A DNA stretch of 64,000 bases. Source: an uncultured Bacteroidota bacterium (GTDB lineage Bacteria; Bacteroidota; Bacteroidia; Chitinophagales; Chitinophagaceae). Numbering within the stretch: position 1 is the first letter of the stretch; each line of letters begins with the position of its first letter. Positions 5,639 through 32,080 of the stretch are shown here, piece after piece. The notes beneath the pieces were generated by a model. That model did not search any database. It saw only the letters and a list, made by a program, of their open reading frames with translations, and was not told the DNA's origin. Location: positions 1-64,000 of the forward strand of contig CADEDV010000018.1 of the NCBI GenBank assembly GCA_902826165.1, read 5' to 3'. The translations under genes were made by a program, and so were the position numbers.

Positions 5639-6331
5639 ATGACACCCTCAATTATGATCGTTTCGCTGATATTTTTAGGTATCAGCATGTTGGTTTCACT
5701 GGCCCTGAAACGGAAGTTTAAGCAATACAGCCAGGTCCCGTTATCAAGTGGCCTGAGTGGCCGTGAAATTGCTGAAAAAATGCTCCGGGAAAGCGGTATT
5801 TATGATGTAAAAGTGACCTCCGTGGAAGGTTTTCTCAGCGACCACTATAACCCGGTTAATAAGACTGTAAACCTTAGTCCTGAGGTATATACCGGCACGA
5901 GTGTTTCAGCGGTAGCCGTGGCTGCTCACGAATGTGGCCATGCTGTTCAGCATGCAACTGCTTACAGCTGGTTGATGATGCGAAGTAAGCTGGTCCCGGT
6001 GGTCCAGGTAAGCTCTTCGCTGGTAAACTGGGTATTATTGATCGGTGTGGTAATGGCCAGCTCCGGGAACAGCACCCTTTTGTTGATTGGCATCATTATT
6101 TTCGCCCTGACGGTACTTTTTTCACTGGTCACTTTGCCTGTGGAATTTGATGCCAGTCGTAGAGCATTAGCCTGGTTAAATACAACAAATGTGACCAATT
6201 CCCGGGAGTATCCAAAAGCCAAAGATGCCCTGAAATGGGCGGCTACCACCTATGTCGTAGCTGCTTTGGCCGCTGTAGTGACACTAATACAATATGTCAT
6301 GTTATATCTTGGGGCTAAAGACAGGGAATAG
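5639..6331 (+). CDS. Zinc metallopeptidase, YugP-like membrane protein
   Basis: A 230-residue membrane protein of the YugP (DUF2324/peptidase_M) family. The zinc motif HECGH at residues 97-101 supplies two histidine ligands and the catalytic glutamate; EFDASRRAL near 168 carries the likely third ligand. Hydrophobic segments lie at residues 5-22, about 120-140 and 147-167, with another near the C-terminus. The substrate is unknown for this family. It is a single-gene unit closed by a strong terminator at 6360-6389. Confidence 0.87.
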   Translation: MTPSIMIVSLIFLGISMLVSLALKRKFKQYSQVPLSSGLSGREIAEKMLRESGIYDVKVTSVEGFLSDHYNPVNKTVNLSPEVYTGTSVSAVAVAAHECGHAVQHATAYSWLMMRSKLVPVVQVSSSLVNWVLLIGVVMASSGNSTLLLIGIIIFALTVLFSLVTLPVEFDASRRALAWLNTTNVTNSREYPKAKDALKWAATTYVVAALAAVVTLIQYVMLYLGAKDRE

Positions 6332-6359
6332 TTAATATGATGATTAATATTTATTTAAA

Positions 6360-6389
6360 AGTCGTGCAGCACATTGCACGGCTTTTTTT
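6360..6389 (+). terminator. Rho-independent terminator after the zinc peptidase
   Basis: A 9-bp stem (6360-6368 with 6375-6383, one G-T pair), 6-base loop and a run of seven Ts at 6383-6389. It separates the peptidase from the SusC/SusD unit, so the latter needs its own promoter in 6390-6432. Confidence 0.85.
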
Positions 6390-6432
6390 GTCTTAACATT
6401 TTATTAATATTTTAGCAACGCACTAAAATTAC

Positions 6433-9400
6433 ATGCACATGAGAAAAACAGCAGGCCTGATGCTGACGGTATTCCTATTATCCGTTCAGATGGTATGGGC
6501 TCAAAACAAAACAGTAATTGGAAAAGTTACGGATGGCAAAGATGGGTCCCCGATACCTGGTGCTTCAGTAACCGTAAAAGGATCAAGAAGCGGAACCACT
6601 TCGGGTTCAGATGGAACCTTCTCTCTTTCAGTTCCTGAAAAAAGTACAGCTCTCATTATTTCTGCTTTGGGTTTTGAATCCCAGGAAATAACTATCACCG
6701 GTTCTACAGTGGAAGTTTCACTAAAAGCCGGAGCCACACAAAGCCTTGATGAGGTAGTTGTAGTCGGTTATGGTGGAAAAATCAAAAAAGACTTAACGGG
6801 TAACATTGCCAGAATTAAAGGGGCTGAAGTTGCGAATACCCCTGTAACAAATTTTACCCAGGCTATCCAGGGAAGAGCTGCAGGTGTTTTTGTAGAAGCC
6901 AACAACGGTAAAGTGGGAGAAGGGGTTAAGGTCAGGATCAGGGGCGGAGGTTCATTAACGGCCGGAAACGATCCTTTATATGTAGTTGATGGAATTCCAA
7001 TCAATACCGATGGCCTTTCCGGTAATGCTTTGGCAGATCTTAATTTCAATGATATAGAAACATTCGACATTTTGAAAGATGCATCTGCCGCCTCTATTTA
7101 TGGTTCCCGGGCTGCGGGCGGTGTTGTTATTATTACAACCAAAAAAGGCCGTGCAGGGAAAACTAACCTGGGCGTGAATTTTCAATACGGAACTAATAAG
7201 CCGACAGGCTACAGGAAATTTCTGGATGCACGTCAGTACGTAGACCTTTTAAGAGAAGCTGCAATCAACAGTGATATTATTGAAGGTGTTGATCCATTAG
7301 ATCCGGCGCAATATCCGGGCTCATGGCTTCAGTTTGCTGAGAACAGGCTTACCCGTTATTCCGGCTATTCAGACTGGAGAAACTTAGAAACCAATACAGA
7401 CTGGCAAAAATTAGCTTTCAATGATAAAGCAACTACCAAAATGGTTGATATTACTGCATCGGGCGGTAATGATAAAACCCGTTTCTATATTAGCGGTGGG
7501 TTCAATGATGTGGATGGTATTTTGATCCTGAATAATTTTCAACGGATCTCATCCCGTTTTAATTTAGAACATGATGCAAGTAATAAAGTAAAGATTGGAA
7601 TCAATCTTGGCGTATCCCGCACCGTTGGTAACAGGAACAACCTGGATAATGCTTTCCAGACTCCTATGCAGTTAGTGGCATTGGCACCCATCACTCCTGT
7701 TCGTGATTTGAATGGCGTATTGTATAATACACCTACTACTACCTATTATAATGGTTTGATTGAAACTGAAAATTCAACGTACAAGTCAACAACGTTCAGA
7801 AACATAGGTAATGTGTTTCTGGCTTACAAGTTTACCAAAGACCTTGCATTCAGGACGGAGTTCGGTGCTGATATTCAATCTCAGAACGATGTACTTTTCA
7901 GGGGATTCAGAACCCTGACCGGTCTTTCAACAAATGGGTATGGTCAATCTGATTGGTTCCGGAATTTTACCTACAATACCAACAACTATTTTACCTATAC
8001 CAAAACAATTGCGGAGAAACATGATATTGATGCAACACTGGGTATGTCGTATCAAAAATTTGCCCAGGACTTCTCAAGTGTATATGGAGAGGACTTCCCT
8101 GTTGAAGATTTGCAAACATTGGCAAGTGCAGGTCGTATAACTGGAGGAACAACAACGAAAACAGAGTCGGCTATCGTATCTTATTTTGGAAGAGCTAACT
8201 ATAAGTTCAATAATAAATATTTGTTCTCTGCAAGTGTTCGTGCAGACGGGTCTTCAAAATTTGGTAAGAATAACCGATATGGTATATTCCCTGCTGTTTC
8301 TGCGGGATGGATATTAAGTGAGGAAAGTTTTCTTTCTTCGTCAAAACTGATCAGCTTCCTGAAGATCAGGGGTAGTTACGGGATAAACGGAAACGACCAG
8401 ATTGGTAATTTTAGCCAGTTAGGCTTATTTGGTGCAGGTAAGTACAATAATCAATCAGGCCTTGTACCCACTCAATTACCCAATCCTGACCTTGCCTGGG
8501 AAAAAAATAAGCAACTTGATATTGGTTTAGATTTCGGTTTATGGGGCAACCGCATCAGTGGTGAAATTGATTATTATGTAAGAAATACCGAGGATCTCCT
8601 CTACAGCGTACCTGTACCGGGTACTTCGGGTTTTACCACTCAGTTGGTTAATATCGGTTCAATGCAGAATAAAGGGATTGAATTTGTATTGAATTCAACC
8701 AATATTAAAAGCAGGGGCTTTACCTGGACATCAAGTTTTAATTTAGCAAAGAATGCTAATAAGATCACCAAGCTCGATGGTGATCAAACCATAATTCCTG
8801 GTAATGATGGCCGGTACCTGAATTCACTTTTAGTTGGAGAAGCAATCGGGGTGTTCTATGGTCCTAAGTTTGCAGGTGCAGATCCCGCTAACGGCGATGC
8901 ACTGTATTATCTTGCAGATGGAAAAACAACTACCAATGATTATAATGATGCAGCATCGTTTATAGTAGGTAATCCAAACCCCGATTGGATTGGTGGTTTA
9001 ACTAATACTTTTAACTATAAAGGAATTGAACTGTCAGTACTGTTTCAGGGTGTGTTTGGTAACCAGATACAAAATGGCGGCGGAGGTTTCATGTCAGCCA
9101 GTTTTGACTGGTTTGATAACCAGACAGCTGACCAGTTAGACAGGTGGCAAAATCCGGGTGATATTACCCAGGTACCTCAACTCAGGTTAGGCTACGGAAA
9201 CGGTATCAATGCATCCAGCCGTTATGTTGAAGATGGCGGATACGTTCGTTTGAAAAACGTAACACTTGCATATAATATCCCTTCATCAATTCTTAGTAAA
9301 TTAAAGATCCGTTCAGCCAGAATTTATGCAACGGGAGTTAACCTGGCAACATTCACTGATTATACCGGGTGGGATCCTGAAGTTAATACGGATTACCGGG

Positions 9401-29122: not shown

Positions 29123-29443
29123 ACTTGTTGCTTGATACTTGCCGCAAAATTAATGAGGCGGTTAATTAACAGCTTCTATGTTTGCTGCAGCTTATCCCGT
29201 TATTTAACGGGTTTCAATTATTATTTTTCCCGGTAAAAAATTAATATTCTCACGGTGTTTTTTAATTATTTACACGGTATTTTTATATCATTCTCCCCCT
29301 TAAATATCTGTCAATCCATCTCTTATAAATAAGTTTAATTCGTAATTAATTGATAGTGTAGTACTTATACGACAAATCTCCATTTCTCCCTCAATAGCTT
29401 TAGCCGGTCATTTTATACTTAAATCAACTAAACAACTAAAGCT
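29123..29443. other. Regulatory-looking intergenic region
   Basis: 321 bases between the divergent DinB gene and the unknown gene at 29444. There is no gene. It holds a short palindrome (29196-29211), a phased direct-repeat array (29206-29284) and an inverted repeat whose right arm enters the next start codon (29394-29445). Together these suggest that the downstream cluster is tightly controlled. Confidence 0.6.
29206..29284 (+). repeat. Phased direct repeats (CGGT-T-rich units at 22-23 bp intervals)
   Basis: Units reading (CA)CGGTRTTTTT occur with CGG at 29208, 29231, 29253 and 29275, spaced 23, 22 and 22 bp, that is two helical turns. The last two units are the closest (CACGGTGTTTTT at 29251-29262, CACGGTATTTTT at 29273-29284); the first two are degenerate (AACGGGTTT and CCCGGTAAAAA). 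Same-face spacing is what one expects for cooperative protein binding. It lies 160-240 bp before the gene at 29444. Confidence 0.55.
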
Positions 29444-29445
29444 AT
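29394..29445 (+). promoter_or_regulatory. Inverted repeat overlapping the start codon of the gene at 29444
   Basis: Perfect 10-bp arms, ATAGCTTTAG at 29394-29403 and CTAAAGCTAT at 29436-29445, separated by 32 bases. The right arm includes the first two bases of the ATG. If transcribed, the folded leader would hide the initiation region. No ribosome-binding site is seen outside the arm. Confidence 0.5.
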
Positions 29446-29917
29446 GGTAAAGGCTCAAAAAAAATCTGTAAAAGCCGGTAAATTGGTAAACACAGAACAT
29501 GTAAACAGGGTGATCAGGAATTACAAACAGGAACGCTGGGTGCATAACTCAAAACGCCTGGGTAAAGAAGATTCACTGAGTGTCTGGTACAGTGTGGAGG
29601 AACTGGAAGAATTCCTGGCGAAAGTAAAGGATCATGGCGGAGATGGCATTAAGCTGTATTTCGGTGCTTATGATACAGAACATGCCCCTCAACCTTTGTA
29701 TGAGGGAAGACAGACGGTGGTGTTTGTTGCTACAAAGGAAAAGCAATCAGGAAAAGGGCTCATTAACAAGGATGTTTATATTAATGAAGGGAAGGGGACT
29801 ACAATACTTGCATATAATTCAGGTAAATTATGTCCTCCCATGTGTACAAATGACGATGGATTTGGGATTGGTATAACCATTATTGATAAGGGTGAAAGCG
29901 GAATAATCGTTGCCTAA
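29444..29917 (+). CDS. Unknown protein with CPPMC motif
   Basis: 157 residues, no signal peptide and no membrane segment, so probably cytoplasmic. I do not recognise a named domain. The N-terminus is basic (VKAQKKSVKAGK). A central block GIKLYFGAYD (about 66-75) and RQTVVFVATKEKQ (about 88-100) looks like beta strands, and near the end LCPPMC (about 127-132) has two cysteines able to bind metal or form a disulfide. I recall similar small CPPxC proteins in Bacteroidota beside multi-helix membrane proteins, but this is from memory. A strong terminator follows it, yet the next genes run in the same direction 79 bp later. Confidence 0.8.
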   Translation: MVKAQKKSVKAGKLVNTEHVNRVIRNYKQERWVHNSKRLGKEDSLSVWYSVEELEEFLAKVKDHGGDGIKLYFGAYDTEHAPQPLYEGRQTVVFVATKEKQSGKGLINKDVYINEGKGTTILAYNSGKLCPPMCTNDDGFGIGITIIDKGESGIIVA

Positions 29918-29933
29918 CCTTTGAATATCACAC

Positions 29934-29968
29934 AATAAAGCCTCCTGAAAAGGAGGTTTTATTTTTTT
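29934..29968 (+). terminator. Rho-independent terminator after the CPPMC gene
   Basis: A 13-bp stem (29934-29946 with 29951-29963, one G-T pair), a GAAA tetraloop and a T-run to 29968. It separates the CPPMC gene from the membrane protein, so the two are either separately transcribed or linked by read-through. Confidence 0.85.
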
Positions 29969-29996
29969 AAGATTAATTGTTTTCATTATTTAGAGT

Positions 29997-30653
29997 ATGG
30001 CTTTTTTACCAATATATGTATATTTCATTGCTCTGAGTTTAGTTGTTAGTATCGTTGTATTTAATTCTTTTCATAGAGGAGATTCATATTTAAAAAACTT
30101 TCCTCCCTTTTTAGCTGCAACTTTAATTATAGAAACTTATGGATCTTACTTATCTTATCATAATGAAAACAATGTAGATCTATATAATTTTTTTACTGTT
30201 ATTGAGTTTTGTTTTTACCAACTTCTTATCAGTATGATGATTAAGAATAAGAGGATGAGGAAAGTAATTTGGTTTTCTTGCATTCTATATGCAGTGATTG
30301 CTGCTATAAATATTATTTTTTTTCAGGGGAAGTATAGTTTTCATACTATAACTTATTCACTCGGATGCCTTATTATAGTTTCATACTGTGTTTATTATTT
30401 TTTTGAACTTTTCCGATTTCCAAAATCTGTAAAACTAGTCCAGACTCCTGCATTCTGGATATGTTCAAGCTTATTATTTTATTATTGCTGTAGTTTTCCT
30501 CTTTTTGCTTTCGTTAATTATTGGGGAACAATAAAATGGGTCGTTGAAAGTTTTGATAGCATAGTTACTATTTTGAACATATTTTTATACTCTTTATTTA
30601 CTATTGCTTTCTTATGCAGCAGAACCCGGAAATATACATTGTCATCTTCATAG
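29997..30653 (+). CDS. Seven-helix membrane protein of unknown function, very AT-rich
   Basis: 218 residues, nearly all membrane. I count seven hydrophobic segments: about 2-22, 34-54, 63-82, 88-109, 115-138, 150-173 and 186-208. Soluble parts are very short. No named family is recognised. Base composition is striking: about 27% G+C over 30001-30600 by hand count, against roughly 45% in the genes on both sides. The histidine kinase ATG lies inside this gene (40-bp overlap), so the two proteins are made together. It may be the sensing part for that kinase, which has no sensory domain of its own. Confidence 0.82.
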   Translation: MAFLPIYVYFIALSLVVSIVVFNSFHRGDSYLKNFPPFLAATLIIETYGSYLSYHNENNVDLYNFFTVIEFCFYQLLISMMIKNKRMRKVIWFSCILYAVIAAINIIFFQGKYSFHTITYSLGCLIIVSYCVYYFFELFRFPKSVKLVQTPAFWICSSLLFYYCCSFPLFAFVNYWGTIKWVVESFDSIVTILNIFLYSLFTIAFLCSRTRKYTLSSS

Positions 30654-31417
30654 GCATAATACTGGGTTTGCTGCTGGTTGGATTTATTGTTACCATTCTT
30701 TTTTTGTACCAGCGCAGGCAGCAACGCCAGGAACAGGAAATGGTTCTGATGAAAGATAAATATGAGAAAGAGGCACTTCGTTCACAGCTGGAAATACAGG
30801 AAAATACCTTTAAGACTATCGGGCAGGAATTGCATGATAATATCGGTCAAATGCTGTCTGTTGTTAAACTGTCTCTTTCTGTTGTACCATTAGAAAAGGA
30901 CCAGAAAGCCTATGAACTGGTAAAAAATTCACAGGAAGTGTTGAATAAAGCGATCATTGACCTTTCTAACCTCACCAAAAGTTTACATACAGAGAGAATT
31001 GTTGATATCGGCCTGCCTGAATCCATCCGCTTTGAATTATATGCTATCCGGAAAGCAGGCCTTATTGAAGTGCACTTTAACCAGGAAGGAGAAGAGGAGC
31101 CATTCAACGAACAGAAATCAATTTTCCTGTTCCGGATGTTCCAGGAGACGCTGAATAATATCCTGAAACATGCAAAGGCTTCAGCAATAACGGTAATGAT
31201 TCGGTATCTCCCCGGCTCCTTCGAGCTGGAGATAAATGATAACGGGGTCGGGTTTGATCTTTCAGAAAAACAACAATCTTCCTCTTCCGTCAGCGGCGTA
31301 GGTTTACGAAGCCTTTTTAACAGGGCCCGGATCATAGATGCCGATATTTCTATTGACAGCAAGCCCGGAACGGGTACTAATGTGCTGATAAAACTATCTT
31401 TGCCGCAAGAATCATGA
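30614..31417 (+). CDS. Small membrane histidine kinase (HisKA_3 type)
   Basis: 267 residues: one transmembrane segment (about 8-31), a charged coiled coil (about 32-65), the HisKA_3 dimerisation helix with the phosphate-accepting His74 in ELHDNIGQ, and an HATPase domain (about 165-265: FRMFQETLNNILKHAKAS as N box, NDNGVGFDLS as G1, GVGLRSLFNRARI as G2). It has no periplasmic or cytoplasmic sensor domain. It starts inside the preceding membrane-protein gene and is followed 3 bp later by a NarL-type regulator, its evident partner. Confidence 0.92.
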   Translation: MQQNPEIYIVIFIGIILGLLLVGFIVTILFLYQRRQQRQEQEMVLMKDKYEKEALRSQLEIQENTFKTIGQELHDNIGQMLSVVKLSLSVVPLEKDQKAYELVKNSQEVLNKAIIDLSNLTKSLHTERIVDIGLPESIRFELYAIRKAGLIEVHFNQEGEEEPFNEQKSIFLFRMFQETLNNILKHAKASAITVMIRYLPGSFELEINDNGVGFDLSEKQQSSSSVSGVGLRSLFNRARIIDADISIDSKPGTGTNVLIKLSLPQES

Positions 31418-31420
31418 TCT

Positions 31421-32080
31421 ATGGCAAAGAAAAACAAGAAGGTCAGCGTTGCAATTGCGGATGATCACAGCCTGCTGCGAAAAGCATTAGCTAATCTTGT
31501 TAATACCTTTGATGTTTATTCAGTGGTTATCGAAGCAGATAACGGTAAACATCTCCGGACAAAGATCCTCACGGAAGGCATTCCGGATATTGTTATGCTG
31601 GATGTGAATATGCCGGAGATGGATGGTTTTGAAACGACGCAATGGCTGTACAAAAACTACCCGCAGGTTAAAATACTGGCTTTGTCCATGCTGAGTGATG
31701 AGCGGACGATCATTAAAATGTTCCGGTTAGGTGCAAAGGGATACCTGTTGAAAAATACAGACCCGGAGGAGTTAAAACAGGCATTGGATTCACTGATGGA
31801 TAAGAATGTATATGTTTCAGAATATGTTTCCGGTAAGCTGATAAGTGGTCTCCACCACGATGCTGACCAGCCCCTCAAAGAATTGTTGCTGAACGAAAGG
31901 GAAAGAGAATTCCTTCGCTGGGCATGTACGGAGTTATCCTACAGGGAAATAGCAGAAAAAATGTTTATCAGTGCACGAACAGCGGACGATTACAGGCAGG
32001 TATTGTTCAATAAATTAAAAGTACATAGCCGGGTGGGATTAGTGATGTATGCCATTAAGAACGGAATTGTTGAGATATAG
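31421..32080 (+). CDS. NarL/FixJ-type response regulator
   Basis: 219 residues. The receiver domain (about 8-125) has the acidic pair DD (14-15), phosphorylated Asp61 in VMLDVNMPEMDG, and LLKNTDPEEL with the conserved Lys near 112. The C-terminal LuxR-type helix-turn-helix (about 150-215) reads EREFLRWACTELSYREIAEKMFISARTADDYRQVLFNKLKVHSRVGLV. It is coupled to the kinase at 30614. Its targets are not known; the phased repeats at 29206-29284 are a natural candidate. Confidence 0.93.
   Translation: MAKKNKKVSVAIADDHSLLRKALANLVNTFDVYSVVIEADNGKHLRTKILTEGIPDIVMLDVNMPEMDGFETTQWLYKNYPQVKILALSMLSDERTIIKMFRLGAKGYLLKNTDPEELKQALDSLMDKNVYVSEYVSGKLISGLHHDADQPLKELLLNEREREFLRWACTELSYREIAEKMFISARTADDYRQVLFNKLKVHSRVGLVMYAIKNGIVEI

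Follow-up and report, generated by a model that had tools for sequence, protein, structure and literature searches.

A conserved four-gene cassette of Bacteroidota that joins a CPPMC protein and a seven-helix membrane protein to a sensorless histidine kinase and a NarL/LuxR-type regulator

In the NreABC system of staphylococci, a small soluble protein stands with a kinase and a NarL-type regulator; the system has no membrane protein and its kinase is soluble. In sensory rhodopsin, a separate seven-helix protein controls a membrane-helix transducer in trans. The LiaFSR system, whose output is LiaIH, has a terminated first transcription unit with read-through. LiaFSR combines an accessory membrane protein with a bare kinase and a NarL-type regulator (PMC7191749). 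In vraUTSR, vraU comes first and the gene for a membrane protein second; an intramembrane-sensing kinase follows, and last comes the regulator, which binds the promoter of its own operon (PMC9380581). Seven-helix receptors that drive bacterial signalling are represented by BtsS/LytS and 7TMR-DISM (PMC10653868).

Here we analysed a cassette of four genes in a 64,000-nucleotide stretch of DNA from an uncultured member of the Chitinophagaceae (hereafter, the window). With it, the machinery of bacterial sensing gains two protein families that no catalogue lists and that are linked to each other in numerous genomes of a single phylum. A description of the cassette was not found in the literature, as far as open-licence papers go; because this coverage is incomplete, novelty is provisional, and the cassette appears to be undescribed so far.

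The four genes and their products

The sequence-only reading of the window had proposed a run of four genes at 29444-32080 encoding a small soluble protein with an LCPPMC motif, a second uncatalogued protein with seven membrane helices, a bare one-helix histidine kinase and a NarL-type regulator. All four open reading frames were found there (Table 1), and the description of their products held: the first protein has no signal peptide, neither of the first two reaches a Pfam or NCBIfam cutoff, and the AlphaFold model of the second has seven helices (mean pLDDT 93.6). The kinase passes the Pfam cutoff for HisKA_3 at 30.0 bits and for HATPase_c at 44.1 bits, and the regulator carries Response_reg (88.6 bits) and GerE (48.2 bits). 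As had also been noted, the kinase gene starts inside the membrane-protein gene, by 40 bp, and the regulator gene starts 3 bp past the end of the kinase gene.

Table 1. Genes and regulatory elements of the cassette in the window
Feature	Position	Strand	Description
ACGG/CCGT box array	29197..29277	+	CCGTTATTTAACGG at 29197-29210; ACGG at 29252 and 29274, 22 bp apart
Palindromic element TTATAAAT-N7-ATTCGTAA-TTAATTGA	29323..29353	+	starts 121 bp ahead of the CPPMC start; candidate operator
TAGCTTTA, promoter -7-like element	29395..29402	+	TAnnTT[TC][AG] match in relatives
CPPMC protein	29444..29917	+	157 aa, soluble; superfamily core; C-terminal N-x-G-x-x-CPPxC tail
Intrinsic terminator	29934..29970	+	between CPPMC and seven-helix genes; 13-bp stem plus T-run
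Seven-helix membrane protein	29997..30653	+	218 aa; AF2 model
Histidine kinase	30614..31417	+	HisKA_3 + HATPase_c; one N-terminal helix, without sensor domain
NarL/LuxR-type response regulator	31421..32080	+	Response_reg + GerE

The kinase has 267 aa with a single hydrophobic segment ahead of the H-box, a layout found in 69 of 70 homologous loci. Besides this membrane segment it has neither an extracytoplasmic nor a cytoplasmic sensor domain, which is the property by which LiaS and VraS are classed as intramembrane-sensing kinases. A kinase that lacks a sensor needs a partner in the membrane, and, judged by gene layout, the overlapping seven-helix protein is the obvious candidate.

The predicted seven-helix bundle is rhodopsin/GPCR-like in arrangement, which is not evidence of descent: in VIA-align comparisons with rhodopsins and GPCRs the best match had a Z of 14.2 with an rmsd of 3.7 over 198 residues, where Z values of 12-14 are near the level that unrelated helical bundles can reach. 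A Foldseek search with the model gave no significant match (E above 0.2), and a sequence search of the PDB with the family profile gave none. Among 34 members of the family, no Pfam family was consistently matched, weak similarities to unrelated membrane families being confined to single members; there was no match to the 7TMR-DISM, 5TM-LytS, HisKA_7TM or LiaF-type families at E 0.1, nor to the rhodopsin family. The window protein has no lysine in helix 7 (residues 180-207), so that the retinal-binding lysine is absent. Positive residues are concentrated at the C-terminus and in the loops that follow helices 1, 3 and 5, so the N-terminus is expected outside and the C-terminus inside. Fusions to a kinase were not found, as no open reading frame in the fetched loci matched both profiles.

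For the CPPMC protein, the AF2 model (pLDDT 81) had no convincing counterpart among PDB folds, with a best Z of 3.1 or less, which does not by itself prove a new fold. Its relatives had no consistent Pfam match, and neither the PspA (LiaH-type) nor GAF-type families matched the protein. DUF4397 was rejected as an assignment at 17.8 bits against a Pfam gathering cutoff of 30.6, with a weak match in 3 of 31 members. We also discounted a kinship with xylanases, because the PDB matches of the CPPMC profile (E about 0.01) covered only residues 18-84 and were taken as chance.

A signal-peptide-like start was found in none of 137 core CPPMC members, and 11 of 29 divergent members had a signal-peptide-like or lipoprotein-like N-terminus, five of them with a lipobox-like motif. 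Such a split between core and divergent members is difficult to square with one shared mode of action. In the protein, a strongly conserved, folded domain some 120 residues long leads into the conserved tail, which stands at the very C-terminus in many divergent members. More than 90% of core sequences keep the cysteine pair and some have lost it; because it is missing in the Niastella group and in several lipoprotein forms, an essential metal or redox site at this pair, conserved across the superfamily, is unlikely.

Several CPPMC relatives stand before other copies of the cassette. Two paralogous cassettes in the window's own genome have such a gene, at L041 1056-1496 (C33) and L043 4021-4683 (C12), one product being soluble and one lipoprotein-like. 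At L145, two adjoining CPPMC-superfamily genes (6217-7125 and 7155-8042) lie upstream of one cassette, and the gene nearer to it has a lipoprotein-like start and apparently two copies of the domain.

Conservation and linkage of the cassette

A CPPMC relative was found in 66 and a seven-helix relative in 161 of 246 genomes of the family, and in the neighbourhoods of these matches the genes for the CPPMC protein, the seven-helix protein, the kinase and the regulator followed each other in this order on one strand almost everywhere. Gene order was also kept around distant CPPMC relatives scoring 23-56 bits. In named genomes, the seven-helix gene came next after the CPPMC gene in 78 of 80 loci, usually with kinase and regulator after it; one of the two exceptions lies at a contig end and the other is a true one (L219). 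The CPPMC gene was directly upstream of a seven-helix gene in 16/16 CPPMC loci when 31 relatives were searched with profiles of both superfamilies, and a search of 345 genomes from the phylum gave 57 matches to the CPPMC superfamily, 53 of them so placed. These counts come from mutually related genomes and are not independent events. The named and other locus collections share some genomes, so that the two locus sets overlap.

Spacing is conserved as well: the median gaps between successive genes in the named-genome loci were +87.5, -34 and +5.5 bp, and the seven-helix and kinase genes overlapped in 62 of 72 loci. Across 70 loci, mean identity was lowest in the seven-helix protein (39%), followed by the kinase (50%), the CPPMC protein (55%) and the regulator (58%). 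Distances correlated at 0.62 between CPPMC and seven-helix proteins and, more strongly, at 0.86 between kinase and regulator. The closest CPPMC relatives in named genomes came from MAGs labelled Chitinophagaceae and Chitinophagales (90 and 88% identity). The cassette of four genes is thus a conserved unit in many Bacteroidota, kept in order, strand and spacing across genera; its arrangement is far from chance, and the counts exclude chance linkage. This co-occurrence shows a functional link and leaves its kind undefined.

Co-occurrence of the two uncatalogued genes beside kinases, named as a check in the sequence-only reading, was thereby borne out, and their independent occurrence, named there as grounds for refutation, gave a divided answer: the CPPMC gene is almost never away from a seven-helix gene, but the seven-helix gene is often without a recognisable CPPMC gene. 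In the 31 relatives, 67 seven-helix matches stood against 16 CPPMC loci. Among 26 seven-helix loci chosen for lack of a clear CPPMC profile match, 25 had a kinase after the seven-helix gene, and in 13 the upstream open reading frames bore at least one of two CPPMC signatures, the first being a motif of the G-[IV]-R-x-Y type and the second a tail of the CPxxC type, with both in six. Control reading frames from the same loci (n=228) had the first signature in two cases, the second in three and both in none. Because the signatures are enriched over these controls, many seven-helix genes without a CPPMC profile match probably have a divergent CPPMC gene upstream. The seven-helix family is broader than the CPPMC family and almost always lies beside a kinase.

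The window's own genome holds two further blocks of seven-helix, kinase and regulator genes, at L042 2096-4248 (C79) and L233 1938-4128 (C5), with no CPPMC gene or signature recognisable upstream of either. Two or three tandem seven-helix genes precede the kinase at L117, L120, L121, L125, L126, L216, L217, L224 and L227; among named genomes these tandem cassettes include those of Niastella, Pseudoflavitalea and Longitalea. The only clear case of a CPPMC gene apart from its other three genes is that of L219 and L147 (G125), in which about 70 kb lie between the CPPMC gene and the other three.

Regulatory DNA before and after the CPPMC gene

The palindromic element ahead of the CPPMC gene has the consensus TTAYRAAT-N7-ATTYRTAA followed by TTnATTGA. 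It scored at least 19 of 27 in 72 of 79 CPPMC upstream regions, where it nearly always starts at about -120, and all 72 copies scoring at least 22 in 756 kb of fetched loci lay upstream of a CPPMC gene, within 200 bp of its start. Because the palindrome is specific to the cassette, the cassette's own regulator is the natural candidate for its binding.

The sequence-only reading had noted repeats in the promoter region, and these proved to be ACGG/CCGT boxes, about 8 times as dense here as in the rest of the intergenic DNA at the loci compared. They are present in 74 of 78 loci, with the array extending from about -160 to -280 and spacings of 10, 14-15 and 22-24 bp. Boxes also lie ahead of other cassette copies in the window's own genome, and the C12 copy (L043) has the CCGTTATTTAACGG palindrome in common with the window. 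LytTR regulators bind nine-base ACC-type repeats with a 12-bp spacer (PMC6193735). Because the boxes resemble LytTR-type repeats and recur near genes for secreted proteins in G092, binding by a second, LytTR-type regulator is possible.

In G092, three more ACGGTATTTTTTCCCTTTTTT[TA]ACGG sites were found at L273 2127, L274 2380 and L275 2332, where neighbouring genes encode predicted secreted proteins some 480-716 aa long and, at one site, a LytTR-like regulator; such sites may belong to a larger regulon or to a different regulator. Within the genome of the window, a wider regulon was sought and rejected, as the tandem box pattern gave the window locus plus two matches at the level of a reversed-pattern control, and the palindrome occurred at a single locus, that of the window.

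An element of the form TAnnTT[TC][AG] lies 25-75 bp ahead of the start in 50 of 58 loci, mostly at 48-49 bp. Of 73 homologous gaps between the CPPMC and seven-helix genes, 55 hold a terminator-like structure, where shuffled sequences gave one on average. A hairpin at the start codon had also been proposed; the underlying 10-bp inverted repeat exists (arms at 29394-29403 and 29436-29445), but its folding was weak (z -1.35; 18 of 200 shuffles as good) and it was retained only in the genus and, at 9 bp, in one other genome. Because its first arm coincides with the conserved promoter-like element, the hairpin is probably coincidental, and we rejected it as a translational switch.

A possible mode of action and comparison with known systems

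We read the locus as a four-part, probably self-regulating membrane signalling cassette with the CPPMC protein as its main output, with a probability of roughly 0.55. The seven-helix protein would detect a signal in the membrane and control the kinase by helix-helix contact, and the kinase would phosphorylate the regulator. The regulator would then bind the palindromic element and strongly activate the CPPMC gene, a switch that probably turns the cassette on. Partial read-through past the terminator would carry transcription into the seven-helix, kinase and regulator genes, leaving the CPPMC protein as the abundant main product and the other three at a lower level, and the CPPMC protein would probably also act back on the receptor or kinase. 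The CPPMC gene looks like the main product because of its regulatory DNA and its own terminator, and a feedback or partner role is suggested by the presence of one superfamily beside separate cassette copies. The L219 genome fits this scheme, because its solitary CPPMC gene has kept palindrome and boxes; its block of seven-helix, kinase and regulator genes has no palindrome. Of the roles initially suggested for the CPPMC protein, that of output finds backing in the regulatory DNA and the terminator, and the part of that suggestion that drew on the start-codon hairpin falls away. Several observations weigh against the scheme: the resemblance of the boxes to LytTR-type sites, a fold similarity near the level of unrelated bundles, the exported-type starts of divergent CPPMC members, and a distance correlation between the CPPMC and seven-helix proteins below that of kinase and regulator.

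The CPPMC protein might instead belong to the sensor. As a soluble subunit it would bind a ligand or serve as an adaptor, docking on the seven-helix protein or the kinase to set the activity of that partner, as NreA sets the activity of NreB. Its superfamily precedes different paralogous cassettes, which would be unusual for an exchangeable output gene, its core is strongly conserved, and ligands beyond the inner membrane would be within reach of the exported paralogues. Regulatory DNA and terminator, however, suggest that the protein is made in excess over the receptor, and the incomplete cysteine pair argues against a metal or redox centre shared by the superfamily, so that we regard a sensor subunit as rather unlikely. 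It is still far less probable that the CPPMC protein serves as precursor for a signal outside the cell that the seven-helix protein recognises, in a circuit resembling quorum sensing with the CPPxC tail as the active part: the terminal position and conservation of the tail and the genetic pairing with a receptor-like protein would agree with such a role, but the 137 core members have no signal peptide, a folded domain of about 120 residues precedes the tail, and the cassette has no peptidase or exporter gene.

The seven-helix protein, for its part, belongs to a family without a known ligand or function and has weak single-member similarities to unrelated membrane families, and could accordingly be an enzyme, a transporter or a stability factor for the kinase. 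We consider this improbable, since the gene almost always adjoins and usually overlaps that of a sensorless kinase and the family has no consistent Pfam match to transporters or enzymes. A merely loose grouping of unrelated genes, held together by chance or hitchhiking, would be in keeping with the separation in the L219 genome; its probability is close to nil, as numerous genera and also paralogous copies repeat the arrangement and preserve its order, strand and spacing.

A broader reading is tentative: Bacteroidota may possess a widespread, undescribed class of signalling system with a GPCR-like, free-standing receptor that acts in trans on a bare kinase, and with a dedicated new-fold partner that comes in a cytoplasmic and an exported form. 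Should the seven-helix protein prove to be such a receptor, bacteria would have their own equivalent of receptor-transducer pairs, in several copies per genome. Sensory rhodopsin is similar in helix arrangement to the model of the cassette protein, which differs in having neither a rhodopsin Pfam match nor the helix-7 lysine for retinal. BtsS/LytS and 7TMR-DISM proteins carry their seven helices in one chain with the kinase or output domain, whereas in the cassette the helices form a separate protein. NreABC shares with the cassette the small soluble protein, the kinase and the NarL-type regulator, and differs by its soluble kinase, the lack of a membrane protein and the absence of a GAF-type match in the CPPMC protein.

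A terminated first unit with read-through would be a further likeness to the LiaFSR system of Bacillus and relatives, which has the same combination of membrane protein, bare kinase and NarL-type regulator. LiaF inhibits its kinase as long as there is no stimulus; the seven-helix family has no LiaF-type match, and the CPPMC protein none to the LiaH (PspA) type. The VraUTSR system of Staphylococcus aureus has a comparable gene order, with a kinase without a sensor domain and its cognate regulator; VraT differs from a seven-helix bundle by its extracellular C-terminal domain (PMC9380581), and the seven-helix family has no VraT-type Pfam match. By analogy with VraUTSR and LiaFSR, the cassette would fit an autoregulated switch with the CPPMC protein as its main output.
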